A stretch of 64,000 nucleotides of DNA from Candidatus Brocadiaceae bacterium S225 (GTDB taxonomy: Bacteria > Planctomycetota > Brocadiia > Brocadiales > Scalinduaceae), in the NCBI GenBank assembly GCA_007859995.1, contig SMSL01000014.1, positions 1-64,000 of the forward strand. Direction: 5' to 3'. The first letter of the stretch is position 1. Each line of letters opens with the position of its first letter. Shown in pieces: positions 12,905-23,945 of the stretch. Below the pieces are notes generated by a model. That model was not told the origin of the DNA, searched no databases, and was given only the letters and a program-made list of their open reading frames with translations. The position numbers and the translations under genes are program-made.

Positions 12905-14539
12905 CTATTCGTACTCCTTAAATAATTTATTCAGCTGGGATTCCTTCTCTGATTGCTGTGCTAATATTTCTTTGATCTTGTCTAAGAAGATGTAGCTTTC
13001 GTCGATCTTATCTCTCAGTATTAATTTAATGATCAGGATAGTAGTCATTTTCTCTATATCCGTGTCAGCATGATGCAAGCCAAGCTGTTTGAACATTTTT
13101 GTTATCATAAGTTTCAGGTAGATTAAGTCAAGAGACGGGGTAAGGGTGCCGGTGAAATCATCAAATAAAACATTCTCTTTTTTTAATCCAATAGTATTGG
13201 CTGCCGCATCTATTACGGTTACTGTCATCGGGGCCGGGCCGCATAGATAAAATGTCAGTTTAGGATCATGTTTAAAGTAGTCAGTCAGTAATGGGCCTAT
13301 AAAACCAACCTTACCAAGCCATTTCTCTCCACTCTTATCAATGTAACCCTGTTCTATAATATTTTTCCTGAGTTCATCTGATGTATTTTTGAGGTATTCC
13401 TTATCAATATCATTTAATTCGGAGGGATTATCTCCCCTGAACGCGCCTGACATTACCGGTATGAATTTAAAGTTATGATGTATTTTTTGCCAGTGAAGCC
13501 ATTTCGATATATAAAGCATGGGAATGTCCTGAAATCTTCTTTCACCTAAGAAGAAGTATATTTCCTCTTTACGTCCTTCTGCGAACCATTGATCGAGGAG
13601 TGCTAAAATTGGCGCAAGCCCCGCTCCACCTGCCACGAAAACGGCTTTATGCGGCTCTTCTTTCAGGCAGAAATTGCCGTAAGGGCCGGTAAACCTGATC
13701 TTCTCACCTGCCCACAAGTTCCAAATCGATTTGTCCTGGAGGTACTCTTGTGTACAGTTTGGACCAAGGCAGGGTACTCCACCACTTTCTATCGGTACAC
13801 GTGGATTTATTGGCGCAGTTCTTGTAATCAACGTTACGATATCTCTCCTTATCGTAGCAATTGAATAAGCACGATAGAGGTCAAGGCCGGGGGTAAATGG
13901 AATATAATCTTTTCCTGTCTCTTTGCAAAAACATTTTATCTGTTTACCGTATTTTTTGTAATGTTGCTCTACATAATCTTCCGGCAAACCTATCTGGATA
14001 TACTGTCCGGGTTTGAAATTGAACTTTTGAAGTGGCCGCAAACGCATTTCCAATTTATCGGATGTCAATTGGATCTTTTTGATTACACGGGCTGAATATT
14101 TTTTAACCTGTAACGTAGACTTAGGCAGAAAGATATCCATATCTTTGTCTATCCTTACCTGGCATGATAGTCTGGTATACCCGTCACCTATTCCTTTCTC
14201 AAGAAACTTTCTGGTCTCTTCTCGTGACTTACGATCAAAAAGAGGTGTTTCTGTTGGTGAATATGGCCCCATGTTAGTATATAATTTTATCTTGCATTGG
14301 CCGCAGGTCGCGTTTCCACCGCAACCTGACGGGATATTGTAATTTTTGGTCTGAAGAGTATTCAGTAATGTGTCTCCACCCTCTATGTTGAGTGTTTTTT
14401 CAAAGCCATCATCACTGTGTATGCAAAGTTCCAGCTTTTTGCCTTTGCCGAAGAACTGGTAGGTAAGTTCGCTGAGCCCGGCCATGGCCAACATGATTAT
14501 TACTATGATAATGATACTCAGTATTATAGACGTGGTCAT
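12905..14539 (-). CDS. nqrF: Na+-translocating NADH:quinone reductase subunit F, with C-terminal extension
   Basis: This NADH-oxidising subunit has an N-terminal membrane helix (residues about 5-25) and a 2Fe-2S ferredoxin domain with CGGNATCGQC. An FAD-binding domain with RAYSIA and an NAD-binding domain with GGAGLAPI and FYLCGPAPMTVTV follow. NqrF passes electrons from NADH via FAD and 2Fe-2S to the other Nqr subunits. At 544 residues it is much longer than the roughly 410 residues usual in proteobacteria. Part of the excess is an insertion in the FAD domain (KCFCKETGKDY region and a PCLGPNC loop). Part is an extra C-terminal tail of about 80 helical residues after FDDFTG. It is the fifth and last nqr gene here. 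Confidence 0.93.
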   Translation of the reverse strand: MTTSIILSIIIIVIIMLAMAGLSELTYQFFGKGKKLELCIHSDDGFEKTLNIEGGDTLLNTLQTKNYNIPSGCGGNATCGQCKIKLYTNMGPYSPTETPLFDRKSREETRKFLEKGIGDGYTRLSCQVRIDKDMDIFLPKSTLQVKKYSARVIKKIQLTSDKLEMRLRPLQKFNFKPGQYIQIGLPEDYVEQHYKKYGKQIKCFCKETGKDYIPFTPGLDLYRAYSIATIRRDIVTLITRTAPINPRVPIESGGVPCLGPNCTQEYLQDKSIWNLWAGEKIRFTGPYGNFCLKEEPHKAVFVAGGAGLAPILALLDQWFAEGRKEEIYFFLGERRFQDIPMLYISKWLHWQKIHHNFKFIPVMSGAFRGDNPSELNDIDKEYLKNTSDELRKNIIEQGYIDKSGEKWLGKVGFIGPLLTDYFKHDPKLTFYLCGPAPMTVTVIDAAANTIGLKKENVLFDDFTGTLTPSLDLIYLKLMITKMFKQLGLHHADTDIEKMTTILIIKLILRDKIDESYIFLDKIKEILAQQSEKESQLNKLFKEYE

Positions 14540-14599: not shown

Positions 14600-16015
14600 T
14601 CAGAAAATCGTTATTGCACCGATACCGGTAAAAATTGCTGCCATGACACCAAGAAGCAGTATAGCAACGGAGTCCTCATCCCACGTGTTAAAAGGTACAA
14701 ACAGTTTGTGTCTCCTCAGTAGAGCAAGCCAGACGCATACCATCAGCCAGTGGAGACCAAATCCAAAAGCCGTGACTGTCGTTGCCATAAAAGACAAGCC
14801 TGGCGGGATAGTAAAGGTAGCAGCAGCAAGGACAATGCAGTTGACGGTAATCAGCTCCAGGAACTGTCCCATTTGTTGATATACATCCATTGCGAAACGT
14901 CTGAGGAGTACGCCCAGAATTTGTACAAAAGTTGCAATGGTTACAATAAAGACTGTTAGGTAAAATATTTTCTCCAATCTTATGGGAACCGGAGAAATTG
15001 AAGAGAGGTAGTTACTTGCACCTATTAATACTTTGTTGTAAACCAACCAGTTAAGGCTTGTGGACAGCGTCACTACGATAACGACAGCCACTCCCATCTT
15101 CCACGCAGCGTCAACCTGCCTGGACTTGTTAAGCAGCGGGCATATTCCCAGAAGTTTGCTGAGAACAATGCCGTCAAAGAAAAGCGCACTCAGGAATATC
15201 GGAAGAAGAATTTGAAATTGACTGTTCAGGGAAGTAACCGCTTTTATATTTGTGACAAGACTTACTACGAGAAGCACTCCCAAGACAATGATTATTATCA
15301 GTTTACCGGTCATTTTAAATGCGGGCTTCTTTTTTTTCATCGGAGTCTCAGCATCTGTTGCTTCCTCTTTTTCCTGTAGTACATTTTCCTGATAGACAAC
15401 ACCTGTCTTGATAAATAGCGGTCTCAGCATGAAACGCCACAATGCCAGAGCAAAGAAACCGCCTACAGGTGTTATCATTAAGACTACAACAGGAAAGCTT
15501 TCCGGAAGTATCCGAAAATTCAGTAACGTTCCAAACCCTAGAGGTTCCCTCATCAGGGCCAGGAAAATGAGCGCGATAGAGTAGCCGAGGCACGCCTTCA
15601 ATATCTTCTTCTGGGCATCCCAGAATCCCAATGTCAGTCCTTCAGCGATTACGGCAAGGACAATGCAGTTTGTTGTAATCAGATCGATATATGCTTTTAT
15701 ATTGAGAGCTATTCTAGGGATTGTTGCCTGGACTATCAGACTGAATATTGTTACGAAAACAGAGATAATAATCATTAAAAGCGTAATTTTGTGATGAGTG
15801 CCGGATGCGATAATTAATTTCTTAAAAGGGTATATAAGGCAGAAGCTGACACATGTTACAAAAACTACACCAACTCCCATTGTAAGAGAGTTCTCCATCT
15901 TGTTTGTGACTGCAAGTGCAGAGCAGAAACCAAGACCTGCCGCCGCTGAAATTATATAGTTATCCCTTAAAAAGAATTTGGAAATCAGCCTGATATATCT
16001 TGACAGCATGACCAT
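14600..16015 (-). CDS. nqrDE: Fused NqrD-NqrE membrane subunit
   Basis: This 471-residue, highly hydrophobic protein contains two consecutive domains of the RnfA/RnfE/NqrD/NqrE family. Residues about 1-205 resemble NqrD (NCIVLAVIAEGLTLGFWDAQKK, then LMREPLGFGTLL). A polar, Lys-rich linker (about 210-240) follows. Residues about 245-471 resemble NqrE, with VNCIVLAAATFTIPP and a GLHWLMVCVWLALLRR end. Each half has about six membrane helices. In characterised Nqr complexes these are two separate genes whose products form a pseudo-symmetric pair binding an iron centre. No other nqrD or nqrE is in the operon and the order A-B-C-DE-F is kept. The start overlaps the nqrC stop. Confidence 0.88.
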   Translation of the reverse strand: MVMLSRYIRLISKFFLRDNYIISAAAGLGFCSALAVTNKMENSLTMGVGVVFVTCVSFCLIYPFKKLIIASGTHHKITLLMIIISVFVTIFSLIVQATIPRIALNIKAYIDLITTNCIVLAVIAEGLTLGFWDAQKKILKACLGYSIALIFLALMREPLGFGTLLNFRILPESFPVVVLMITPVGGFFALALWRFMLRPLFIKTGVVYQENVLQEKEEATDAETPMKKKKPAFKMTGKLIIIIVLGVLLVVSLVTNIKAVTSLNSQFQILLPIFLSALFFDGIVLSKLLGICPLLNKSRQVDAAWKMGVAVVIVVTLSTSLNWLVYNKVLIGASNYLSSISPVPIRLEKIFYLTVFIVTIATFVQILGVLLRRFAMDVYQQMGQFLELITVNCIVLAAATFTIPPGLSFMATTVTAFGFGLHWLMVCVWLALLRRHKLFVPFNTWDEDSVAILLLGVMAAIFTGIGAITIF

Positions 16016-16722
16016 TATCTTTCTTCCCCCATCTCCTGCCAGAAGGTTCCCATCGACTCGTTAATAATTTTTTCTATCCCCTTGCTTGTATATGAAGCTC
16101 CCGTAATGGCATGTACCTCATTCGGGCCTACTGATTCTCTTCCTCTCACCAGTGATAACCTTGGTTTCAGTTTTTTGCCGATAAATTGTCTCTTAAATTC
16201 ATCTTCCGTCATCCTGCCGCCAAGACCGGGAGTTTCAGTATGGTCCAGTACCTCTATACCTTTTATGGTTTCCAAATCGGGGCCGACGCAGATAAACAGA
16301 GAAATATCGGCAGCTTTGTTAAAGCCATAACCAGGTTTTGTAGTAATAAATCCTATACCTTCTAAGCTTCCGTCCTTGTAATACAAAAACAGCTCTTTTC
16401 CCTTTTTATTCATTTGCATTGGATTAGCGGATAGTTTTTGACTGGAAATATCTGATGTATTCTTTCTGGTAATGTTGTTATTGAAAACGGTCCGTACGTT
16501 CTCCTTATCAACCTTCATCCGGCGAAAGCCAAGTAATTGTTTCTCTTCTGTGCGATATGGAATATCAAATATATCAAGGACTGATCTTTTAATCTTAATT
16601 TCATGGTATTCGGCAATCCTTGCTGAAGTTGCAAAATACAGGGTCAACAATATAGTACATGGTATAGCCGTAATAAGAGTGATAGAAAAGACTCTTATAA
16701 GTATTATTTTAAACTCGTTCAT
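16015..16722 (-). CDS. nqrC: Na+-translocating NADH:quinone reductase subunit C
   Basis: This 235-residue protein has an N-terminal membrane helix (about residues 8-30) and a periplasmic FMN-binding domain. The flavinylation motif near the C-terminus reads HAITGASYTS (about residues 204-213), equivalent to D.xSGATxTS in classical NqrC. The Thr/Ser acceptor is kept as Ser, but the first Asp is His. Other conserved parts are GYGFNKAADISLFICVG and LDHTETPGLGGR. It carries covalent FMN in the Nqr electron path. It overlaps nqrDE by one base and follows nqrB by 3 bp. Confidence 0.92.
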   Translation of the reverse strand: MNEFKIILIRVFSITLITAIPCTILLTLYFATSARIAEYHEIKIKRSVLDIFDIPYRTEEKQLLGFRRMKVDKENVRTVFNNNITRKNTSDISSQKLSANPMQMNKKGKELFLYYKDGSLEGIGFITTKPGYGFNKAADISLFICVGPDLETIKGIEVLDHTETPGLGGRMTEDEFKRQFIGKKLKPRLSLVRGRESVGPNEVHAITGASYTSKGIEKIINESMGTFWQEMGEER

Positions 16723-16725
16723 TTT

Positions 16726-17823
16726 TTATCTGTATTTTATCTTCAGTATCAGGGATTGAATCGGAATCCCTATAAGGTTCATGAGTAGTATTGCATACAT
16801 TATGCCTTCAGGTATTGGTGTAAAACTCCTGATTACAACAGTAATAAGGCCGCAACCGATACCAAAAATCCATTTGCCGATTTGACTGTATGTCGTTGTG
16901 ACCGGGTCTGTTGCCATGAAAAAGGCGGCGAAGATAAGCCCCCCACTCAAGAGCTGGAAAATAGGAGGCGCCACAGTATTGCCGGCCAATAAAGATAAAA
17001 CCGTGGAAAAGATAAATACGCTTCCTAAATAGGCAACAGGGATTCTCCAGTTTGCGATCCTTTTAAAACATAACCATATTCCCATAATGATGATAGAGAT
17101 CCTGCACGTTTCTCCCAGGGAGCCGGTATTTGAACCGAACATAAGGGAGAAATAAGATGCAGTCTCACCAATTTCTTTATAAACTATGAGAGGTGTTGCG
17201 CGTGTGACCGCATCCACTCCATGGATTAAGGACTGGACGGTTGGTATGCCGGTGAACGGCTCCTGCCATCCGGTGACTACTATGGCGGGAAAACATATTG
17301 TCAACAACAGGCGACCGAGCAGGGCGGGGTTAACAAGGTTATTGCCGACCCCACCGAGAATATTCCTGAACAGTATACTTATTGCTGCCCCTACACCAAT
17401 TAGCCAGAGAGGCGCCTGAGGTGGTAATAACGCGGGGATAAACAGACAGGTTACAAACCCTCCTTCATTGATTCTTTCTTCTCTGGCCAGTACTACCCAT
17501 ATTGCCTCTACTACAAACACACCGACCACTAATGATACAATAAGTTTTGGAACAACGCATAAAAAGCCATAAAAGTATATTGCGGGGACAACCCATCCAA
17601 AAAAGAGTGCAACAAGAACACCGCCCATGTATTGTTTAACATCCATATTGCTCCGAATGTACGGCGGGGTTTTCGCAGTGTCTTTTGTGCTTCTGATCAA
17701 GCCGTCACAAGCTTCGAACAGCGCACCGAAAAGGTAGTTAACCTTTGGGTGTGATTGGACAAAATTCTCTGCCTTGTTCAGGTTATTATTTAAAATTGTT
17801 TCAATACGTTTAAATATTTTCAT
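16726..17823 (-). CDS. nqrB: Na+-translocating NADH:quinone reductase subunit B
   Basis: This 365-residue integral membrane protein has about ten helices. The hallmarks are GGVGNNLVNPALLGR (about 157-171) and the FMN-attachment segment DAVTRATPL (204-212), equivalent to D.xSGATPL with Thr-210 as acceptor. A downstream FMATDPVTT segment is also present. NqrB holds covalent FMN and riboflavin and the Na+ path. It lies between nqrA and nqrC with spacings of a few bases, so the operon is tightly coupled. The N-terminal cytoplasmic arm (residues 1-60) is normal for the family. Confidence 0.93.
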   Translation of the reverse strand: MKIFKRIETILNNNLNKAENFVQSHPKVNYLFGALFEACDGLIRSTKDTAKTPPYIRSNMDVKQYMGGVLVALFFGWVVPAIYFYGFLCVVPKLIVSLVVGVFVVEAIWVVLAREERINEGGFVTCLFIPALLPPQAPLWLIGVGAAISILFRNILGGVGNNLVNPALLGRLLLTICFPAIVVTGWQEPFTGIPTVQSLIHGVDAVTRATPLIVYKEIGETASYFSLMFGSNTGSLGETCRISIIIMGIWLCFKRIANWRIPVAYLGSVFIFSTVLSLLAGNTVAPPIFQLLSGGLIFAAFFMATDPVTTTYSQIGKWIFGIGCGLITVVIRSFTPIPEGIMYAILLMNLIGIPIQSLILKIKYR

Positions 17824-17828
17824 TTTTC

Positions 17829-18839
17829 TTAATTTACTGACTTACATTCTTTAATAACCTGAAGCAGTTCTAATTTTGAAGGACATATATAACTGCAGAG
17901 CCCGCATTCAATACATTTATCCAATGCATAGATACGTGCCTTCTGCTTTTCGCCGCGTGAATGACAGTGCCAGTAGAGGGCCGGTTCAAGATTTACCGGG
18001 CAAATATCATCACAATAATTGCAGTATACACAGTGTCTTAATTCTCCCCTGAGGCTTGTCGTAAAGTGCAGTTCGTTAGTCTTTATGTAAGGGAAAGGTA
18101 TCTTGTAATCTTTCTCCTCCATTACGACAATGTTCTTTACGGGCCAGTCAATCGCTTGCGTCAGATCTTCAACCTCGATACCGTTCAGAAGTCCGTCAAA
18201 AAAGACACGATATTTGATATCAGTTTTGATATATTTTTTTAAAACAGTTTCAACAGGAGTGCCAGGCCTTACCTTGAGAATCCTGTTTTCATGTAAGCCT
18301 GTTCCTGATATCGGTATAAGACGTACTTCGTTTTCTTTCTTTAATATATAGTGTTCATAAATGCCGGTGACGGATTGGGGGTCTAATAAGAGAATTCCAT
18401 GCTTAATTGGATCCTCATCAAAGGAGATCTCCAACCCGAGAACATTCTTTAATACAAGTACAGGCGCGTCATAAGGATAAGCAGGTTCCATGCTATACGT
18501 ATGCAACCACTCTTTCTCTTTTCCATACCGTATTAAGTCATTAATAAGATCATCTTCACCGCAGTCAACGACAATGCGAAACTGTGAGTCGGGAAAGTAC
18601 TCTGATCTTACTTTTTCCAGTCTGTGCAGGAAATTTGTCGTATTGTCTTTGAGGATAGCCCAGTGAGGAAGTGCCCATGGTTCGGTAGGACATAAATTTA
18701 TTATAATGTGTTCAACCTTTTTTTCAGGGAAGGGAAAACTGAAATTTTCGGTATGTCCACTATACCTTACTGACACAATTTCTTCAGAAAACTCAGTTGG
18801 ATATGTATTTATGAGATCAAAACCTTTTCTGTATACCAT
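17829..18839 (-). CDS. nqrA: NqrA-like subunit with two 4Fe-4S motifs (RnfC-like C-terminus)
   Basis: This 336-residue soluble protein occupies the nqrA position at the head of the operon. It keeps the RnfC/NqrA core: a Rossmann-like region around residues 90-200 and an SLBB-like segment at ISGTGLHENRILKVRPGTP. It ends in two ferredoxin motifs, CVYCNYCDDICP (about 270-281) and CIECGLCSYICP (about 309-320). Vibrio-type NqrA has about 446 residues and no cluster-binding cysteines, whereas RnfC carries two 4Fe-4S clusters. It therefore looks like an Nqr subunit with ancestral Rnf-like clusters and a shorter N-terminus. It is first in an operon running to 12905. Upstream is AT-rich promoter-like DNA. 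Confidence 0.85.
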   Translation of the reverse strand: MVYRKGFDLINTYPTEFSEEIVSVRYSGHTENFSFPFPEKKVEHIIINLCPTEPWALPHWAILKDNTTNFLHRLEKVRSEYFPDSQFRIVVDCGEDDLINDLIRYGKEKEWLHTYSMEPAYPYDAPVLVLKNVLGLEISFDEDPIKHGILLLDPQSVTGIYEHYILKKENEVRLIPISGTGLHENRILKVRPGTPVETVLKKYIKTDIKYRVFFDGLLNGIEVEDLTQAIDWPVKNIVVMEEKDYKIPFPYIKTNELHFTTSLRGELRHCVYCNYCDDICPVNLEPALYWHCHSRGEKQKARIYALDKCIECGLCSYICPSKLELLQVIKECKSVN

Positions 18840-22649: not shown

Positions 22650-23945
22650 TTGGCTTCACAAAATGAAAATTCTATAAAGAAGTCTGACTCATCAAATGTG
22701 TCTAAGAAGAAGCGTAAATCATCATGGATCACTTCACTCAGGTTTAGATGGTTTTCACAGATTTCGTTTTTTATTATAACAATTTACATTGGATGGTCGT
22801 TTTATCTGTTTGTGCGATATTGTGAATCCGGCGGTGTTACTGCTTTTGTGGCAAGGCCGCCGGGGATTGAGGCATTTTTGCCTATAGGTGCATTTATGGG
22901 GTTGAAGTATTTTCTGGGTACAGGGGCGGTAGACCCTTTGCATCCTGCGGGTTTTATTATATTTGCTTCTATTTTGGTAACTTCGTTTCTTTTTCAAAGG
23001 GGGTTTTGCAGCTGGATATGTCCGGTTGGAACAATGTCGGAGTGGGCATGGAGATTTGGTGATTGGCTAAAGTCTAAATTTAACAGCAAGGTCAGCTATT
23101 GGTTGGAAAAGTTTCCGGTAAAACTTACATGCGGCCTCAGCATGATAACAACTCCGATTGTCGCCCTGATGCTTCTTAATATGATAACTTTTGCTTCATT
23201 TAAATCGTCAAGCATGAAGTATATCTTTCCTTTTATGATTGTGGCTATTGTCATACCTTTTGTCCTGCCCAGGAAAATTTGGCCGGCCCGTGTGGAAGAT
23301 GCTATCGCGCGCGCGTGGAAGTATACCCTTTTGACCTTTTTTACTGTCAACATTGTGATAAAGATGTCGGCTGCTCAGCTTGGAATGATATTTGAGAAGG
23401 CTCCGTATATGAAGGTTGCAGATATAAAGATGATGTATTTTTTCCTTGATCTTTCCATGCTTGCGTTAATTATTTTATCCTTAATATTCTTTTTTTCCAT
23501 TTTCAATAAGAATTACTGGTGCAGGTATTTTTGTCCGTATGGCGCCTTGATAGGTATCCTGGGATGGGCCAGTGCAACCAGAATAGTTCGAAACAAAAAG
23601 ACGTGTATTGATTGCAGTAAGTGTACGATTGCCTGCCCGGTTTATATAGAAGTGGAGAAAAAAAATATTGTTTATGATGTAGAATGTCTTGGTTGCTATG
23701 ATTGTGTTGATTCGTGTCCCGTAAATGGCGCTCTCGATATGAAGGTTTTGGGAGTTGGCAAGAAGGTTCATTATGCTGTCTATGCCGGTCTTGTAGTTGG
23801 TCTATTTGTAGTTTTTATGAATACCGCGCGATTTACAGGATACTGGTACAATAATGTATCGGTACAGGAATACACGGAATTGGTCCAGGATCTGGATAAT
23901 CCCAGGTTCAAACATCAGCAAGGGGAATTTGAGATAGAAGAGTAG
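22650..23945 (+). CDS. NapH/NosR-like membrane polyferredoxin
   Basis: This 431-residue protein has five to six membrane helices and conserved cytoplasmic cysteine motifs. CSWICPVGTMSEW and CRYFCPYGALIG are the twin CxxxCP motifs of the NapH/NosR/YccM family. Two 4Fe-4S motifs follow: CIDCSKCTIACPV and CLGCYDCVDSCPV. Such proteins pass electrons between the quinone pool and periplasmic reductases or maturation factors. The start at 22650 is a TTG behind GGAGGAAC. The partner reductase is not in the neighbourhood, so the substrate is unknown. The next gene starts 11 bp downstream. Confidence 0.88.
   Translation: MASQNENSIKKSDSSNVSKKKRKSSWITSLRFRWFSQISFFIITIYIGWSFYLFVRYCESGGVTAFVARPPGIEAFLPIGAFMGLKYFLGTGAVDPLHPAGFIIFASILVTSFLFQRGFCSWICPVGTMSEWAWRFGDWLKSKFNSKVSYWLEKFPVKLTCGLSMITTPIVALMLLNMITFASFKSSSMKYIFPFMIVAIVIPFVLPRKIWPARVEDAIARAWKYTLLTFFTVNIVIKMSAAQLGMIFEKAPYMKVADIKMMYFFLDLSMLALIILSLIFFFSIFNKNYWCRYFCPYGALIGILGWASATRIVRNKKTCIDCSKCTIACPVYIEVEKKNIVYDVECLGCYDCVDSCPVNGALDMKVLGVGKKVHYAVYAGLVVGLFVVFMNTARFTGYWYNNVSVQEYTELVQDLDNPRFKHQQGEFEIEE

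Follow-up and report, generated by a model that had tools for sequence, protein, structure and literature searches.

An operon in the window (the whole stretch of DNA analysed here, 64,000 nucleotides) could encode a Na+-NQR-type, ion-pumping NADH–menaquinone oxidoreductase, the NqrA of which belongs to the stem lineage and has kept its iron–sulfur clusters; the probability of this reading is put at roughly 0.6. The operon itself, the NqrF-type input, the NqrB-type extension and the ligand motifs for FMN and 2Fe-2S centers are read from the sequence, as are the eight invariant cysteines of subunit A, the loss of its FMN loop and its tree position as part of a grade lying between RNF and canonical NQR. 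NqrA is described as cofactor-free, or as having lost its cofactors, in reviews and in a structure paper of 2025 (PMC12174285 among them).

Composition of the operon

The genes lie on the minus strand in the order A-B-C-(D+E fused)-F, with A first, and this A-B-C-DE-F operon is found in 19 of the 19 anammox loci compared. Loci related to that of the window are 56–95% identical, and most of them carry the name Candidatus Scalindua (anammox bacteria), the genus to which the genome of the window is assigned on this basis. Subunit A (336 aa; 17829..18839, minus strand) is assigned to the NqrA/RnfC family by its open reading frame, Pfam, profile scores and alignment; it is truncated at the N-terminus and contains two 4Fe-4S motifs.

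Subunit B of the NqrB/RnfD family (365 aa; 16726..17823, minus strand) is of the NqrB type, with the FMN site DAVTRATPL. Its N-terminal extension (residues 1–60; 17644..17823, minus strand) aligns with NQR and is missing from RnfD of RNF. The corresponding NqrB segment builds the quinone site in NQR (PMC12174285), from which the function of the extension is taken. Subunit C of the NqrC/RnfG family (235 aa; 16015..16722, minus strand) contains the FMN-attachment motif HAITGAS, and ApbE, responsible for FMN attachment, is encoded in the window genome. The same motif, with Ser in place of the flavinylated Thr, is present in all Scalinduaceae loci checked, versus D/E-AITGAT in loci of the sister family f5 (which would be Brocadiaceae, to judge by the literature).

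NqrD and NqrE (RnfE and RnfA) are fused into a single protein (471 aa; 14600..16015, minus strand), in which the four cysteines that ligate the intramembrane 2Fe-2S cluster are all present. D and E form one protein in all anammox loci compared, and two proteins in family f4 and the other cluster-bearing operons. The NqrF-like NADH dehydrogenase subunit (544 aa; 12905..14539, minus strand) comprises a 2Fe-2S ferredoxin domain, an FAD/NAD domain, an internal insert and a C-terminal extension of ~80 aa. The TIGR01941 model matches it over 404 of 405 positions with 172 bits, below the cut-off of 295 bits. The extended length of F is conserved in all anammox loci (~543–570 aa).

RnfB is not encoded in the operon, and its best match in the window genome scores 34 bits, short of the 68.7 required; this genome is 79% complete, and more complete congeners agree on the absence. 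The sequence-only reading spoke of an Nqr operon, a label that holds insofar as the input gene is NqrF-like and the operon lacks RnfB. RnfB above the cut-off was found neither in f4 nor, with the exception of one genome (G014), in Scalinduaceae; since canonical RnfC is missing as well, no ordinary RNF is evident in most genomes of these two families. The f5 genomes encode RnfB and canonical RnfC besides the cluster-bearing operon. Canonical rnfC-rnfD-rnfG genes in f5 and in family f2 (L056, L052) adjoin an aminotransferase-like gene, and no rnfE, rnfA or rnfB was detected next to these genes. Hydrazine synthase alpha (PF18582) is present in f4 genomes (G019:C14, G021:C18) and in f2 genomes, which makes both probable anammox families as well. 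Going by PMC12758564, f4 would probably correspond to Anammoxibacteraceae and f2 to Bathyanammoxibiaceae.

With Na+-NQR of Vibrio cholerae the predicted complex shares the order A-B-C-D-E-F, the NqrF-type NADH input, the quinone-site extension of NqrB, FMN sites on B and C and the 2Fe-2S ligands in D/E. It differs in the two 4Fe-4S motifs and the missing N-terminal barrel of A, the fusion of D and E, an F ~130 residues longer and Ser at the FMN site of C. RNF (RnfABCDGE; Clostridium tetanomorphum, Acetobacterium woodii) has a homologous membrane core and both RnfC 4Fe-4S motifs in identical columns, whereas the operon of the window lacks RnfB, has an A without the FMN/NADH loop and combines an NqrF-type input with the NqrB-type extension of B. 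An Nqr operon comprising all six subunits, with D fused to E, was described in the anammox bacterium Candidatus Jettenia ecosi; in the available text of that report clusters of subunit A are not mentioned (PMC6828613). According to the same text, complexome profiling of Kuenenia had revealed ion-translocating complexes of this kind (PMC6828613).

Cluster motifs and lost regions of subunit A

The first 4Fe-4S motif of A, CVYCNYCDDICP, occupies residues 270–281 (17997..18032, minus strand), and the second, CIECGLCSYICP, residues 309–320 (17880..17915, minus strand); the ligand columns of both align with those of RnfC. Pfam places 4Fe-4S dicluster domains at residues 266–322, above the cut-off. 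All eight cluster cysteines are invariant in the anammox A proteins aligned (17/17 rows; Scalindua and the sister family f5), which share 46–95% pairwise identity with the window protein, and they fall in the same columns as the eight cluster ligands of 26 RnfC proteins. The two Rnf-like motifs reported by the sequence-only reading are therefore real, as is the shortening of the protein by ~110 residues relative to Vibrio NqrA (336 versus 446 aa, chain 7xk3_A). The invariance of the cysteines and their match to the RnfC ligand columns indicate that the motifs did not arise by chance.

The eight cysteines are also invariant in nine of nine other complete cluster-bearing NqrAs. Among 22 aligned canonical NqrAs, six of the eight ligand positions have no Cys in any protein, and the last two columns retain a relic Cys in 86% and 64%. 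The possibility that clusters are a normal trait of NqrA was considered and ruled out: the motif is missing in all 30 of the 30 best canonical NqrA matches.

As a whole, the protein scores below the cut-offs of both families. The RnfC model yields 96 bits (cut-off 246), its match starting at about position 150, while two NqrA models yield 55 of the required 450 and 35 of 321 bits, mainly at the C-terminus. Among solved structures, the closest are RnfC subunits from Rnf complexes (9eri, 7zc6), NqrA being a far weaker match. An AlphaFold model built with 12 Scalindua sequences had a pLDDT of 40 and was discarded; the alignment would place the clusters of A near riboflavin.

The GLGGAGFPT-type loop, which serves FMN/NADH binding, is found in 26 of 26 RnfC proteins and is intact in no other aligned protein, window A included. 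In f4 it persists in a decayed form (SLGTSGIPTPHN), and in the anammox A proteins aligned the loop is deleted together with the barrel. The f5 proteins still have an FKGG-like start, as in RnfC. An N-terminal part encoded elsewhere was not detected: the listed minus-strand open reading frames upstream of A are all ≤56 aa, the window genome gives 0 matches each to PF05896 and PF13375, and a separate RnfC_N (PF13375) barrel protein is absent from 12 of 13 Scalindua genomes, the window genome counted. The exception, G010, has an extra canonical NQR operon (L097 and L099; G010:C13 203000-235000), in which nqrA is in two pieces and ApbE adjoins; a second nqrA fragment is situated ~15 kb off.

Possible electron path and role of the clusters

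In RNF, electrons pass from the riboflavin of RnfD to an RnfC cluster 11.7 Å away, then to the second cluster and to FMN (PMC9588780). In NQR, the riboflavin of NqrB delivers them to quinone (PMC12174285). Subunit A of the stem lineage has lost the NADH/FMN site of RnfC and would have kept both [4Fe-4S] clusters; in Scalindua and f5 the whole N-terminal barrel is gone as well. Electrons from NADH could pass through FAD and the 2Fe-2S center of F to the intramembrane 2Fe-2S cluster of D/E, then through FMN of C to FMN and riboflavin of B and finally to menaquinone, the presumed acceptor; Na+ would be the coupling ion. Alternatively, the flow could be reversed, with the formation of NADH. The clusters of A, presumably bound and redox-active, would lie beside riboflavin and act as a one-electron relay or buffer. 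An NqrF input and an NqrB extension are combined with RnfC clusters but not with the RnfC FMN; the most economical reading is an NADH–menaquinone pump that has kept a relay or buffer next to the riboflavin. The fact that canonical NQR works without clusters in A counts against it.

The clusters could instead form a port to a soluble low-potential carrier, the outer one meeting ferredoxin or flavodoxin now that FMN is gone. The pump would then couple ferredoxin to either NADH or menaquinol and could feed, for instance, CO2 fixation by the Wood–Ljungdahl pathway. This is the strongest of the alternatives, although clearly less probable than a relay within a quinone-reducing pump. It would account for the retention of a relay after its former partner (FMN/NADH) had been lost and for the strict constraint on eight cysteines while the remainder of A degenerates, and it agrees with the lack of RnfB and canonical RnfC in most Scalinduaceae and f4 genomes. 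However, transfer of electrons to ferredoxin via B would be uphill, and cluster-bearing A proteins also occur in nearly full-length form in other genomes. Nor does the operon have a conserved ferredoxin neighbor: comparison of the surroundings of 19 anammox loci revealed none. The idea of the sequence-only reading that this Nqr could take ferredoxin electrons thus finds no support in the gene content, in which such a neighbor and, G014 apart, RnfB above the cut-off are missing. The common neighbors are a FabI-like reductase, a universal-stress protein and an antiporter only, and these are limited to Scalinduaceae. A gene for a NapH-like membrane polyferredoxin (22650-23945, plus strand) is situated ~3.8 kb upstream of the operon of the window.

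Slightly less probable is a purely structural role, in which the clusters are bound but carry no current and merely fix the C-terminal ferredoxin-like domain of A to NqrB. Canonical NqrA retains this domain without clusters and is itself regarded as structural (PMC12174285). The same observation can be turned against such a role, since the domain evidently stands cluster-free; moreover, that all eight ligands survived both deep divergence and truncation points to more than a contribution to the fold. An NQR with two outputs, in which menaquinone is reduced at NqrB and soluble ferredoxin trades electrons with the iron–sulfur relay of A, is more doubtful still. If it existed, such an enzyme would provide gradient-driven low-potential electrons for CO2 fixation in anammox bacteria lacking RNF.

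Cluster-bearing forms between RNF and NQR

Proteins of the NqrA type with both motifs, encoded beside NqrF and other subunits, were found in several further Planctomycetota families (392 Planctomycetota genomes and 75 of the class were searched). Complete or near-complete operons are present in G019 and G021 (both f4), G148, G405, G088, G260, G421 and G423, the A of the last being partial; partial operons on short contigs occur in G069, G067, G064 and G314. As in the window, the complete and near-complete operons combine a cluster-bearing A with B-C-D-E-F, include NqrF and lack RnfB. They differ in that D is not fused to E, F is unextended in f4, and A retains an N-terminal region wherever the contig covers the gene (frames of 445 to 604 aa). 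The A proteins of f4 match both models, RnfC with 241 and 234 bits and NqrA with 168 and 163 bits. Beyond Planctomycetota the sampling comprised a few records from plasmids and from E. coli, and the plasmid entries listed carry the annotation NqrA or RsxC. Prior knowledge of many cluster-bearing NqrAs had been named beforehand as an objection. Such proteins do occur in several families, but no paper describing one was found in the open-access literature, subscription papers being outside the scope of the search.

Trees were rooted on RNF, following the consensus of the literature (PMC4014512, PMC11889175, PMC12174285), and the relic cysteines of canonical NqrA support the direction from RNF to NQR. 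In the trees of A, B and D+E and of concatenated B+D+E, the cluster-bearing forms make up a grade that leads from RNF to canonical NQR. In the B, D+E and A trees, a branch with 99–100% bootstrap sets off each of three groups, namely RNF, the anammox proteins and canonical NQR; the other cluster-bearing forms are not set off in this way. L088–L090 (for D+E, L088 and L089) join canonical NQR with supports of 100/96, 100/97 and 100/97 in three trees. Without the anammox rows, B+D+E gives the order RNF, f4, L092/L093, L088/L089, NQR (supports 100/100, 99/96 and 100/99), and a single clade of cluster-bearing forms is rejected (AU p 0.038). Inclusion of the anammox and f6 rows leaves the branching order unchanged; with the long anammox branch in, the single clade is not rejected (AU p 0.17 for the concatenation, 0.33 for A, 0.10 for B). 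Bootstrap values, however, give good support to a placement of canonical NQR inside the cluster-bearing grade.

The proposed check by RnfC/NqrA phylogeny accordingly places cluster-bearing A between RNF and canonical NqrA. The suggestion of an evolutionary intermediate applies to the group, whose members branch successively below canonical NQR in trees with RNF as the outgroup. It does not apply to the window protein itself, which by its alignment and branch length is a derived, truncated, long-branch member rather than an ancestral form. The grade position of full-length cluster-bearing NqrAs encoded beside NqrF dates, on the evidence of these trees, the gain of NqrF and the loss of the NADH/FMN site before the loss of clusters. 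According to an earlier proposal, RnfC lost its NAD, FMN and cluster sites as a consequence of the loss of RnfB (PMC4014512).

The anammox branch could be a sister of f4 or an early branch. A separate origin, in which an RNF, apart from the NQR line, lost RnfB, gained a gene of the NqrF type and came to have a truncated RnfC, is unlikely. The branches are long, and a position next to RNF is not rejected (p 0.39 for B, 0.59 for A); yet the NqrB extension and signature and the NqrA-type stretch directly before the clusters are common to both lines, and constraining the anammox rows with f4 improves the likelihood over the free tree by 8.6 log units. It is highly improbable that the complex is still RNF-like, with a new binding site for NAD or FMN on A: the RnfC model does outscore the NqrA models on A, but the FMN-binding loop and the entire N-terminal part are absent from the anammox proteins aligned, and F already provides an NADH site.

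Descent of NQR from RNF is accepted, while the order of changes has so far been conjecture; living operons give this order from data. The cluster-bearing operons supply proteins in which each step from RNF to NQR is measurable, and the survival of an intermediate stage in anammox bacteria and some other Planctomycetota makes the route testable. The finding bears on the role of NqrA, which reviews have left open, and on the electron traffic between NADH, menaquinone and ferredoxin in anammox bacteria without RNF.
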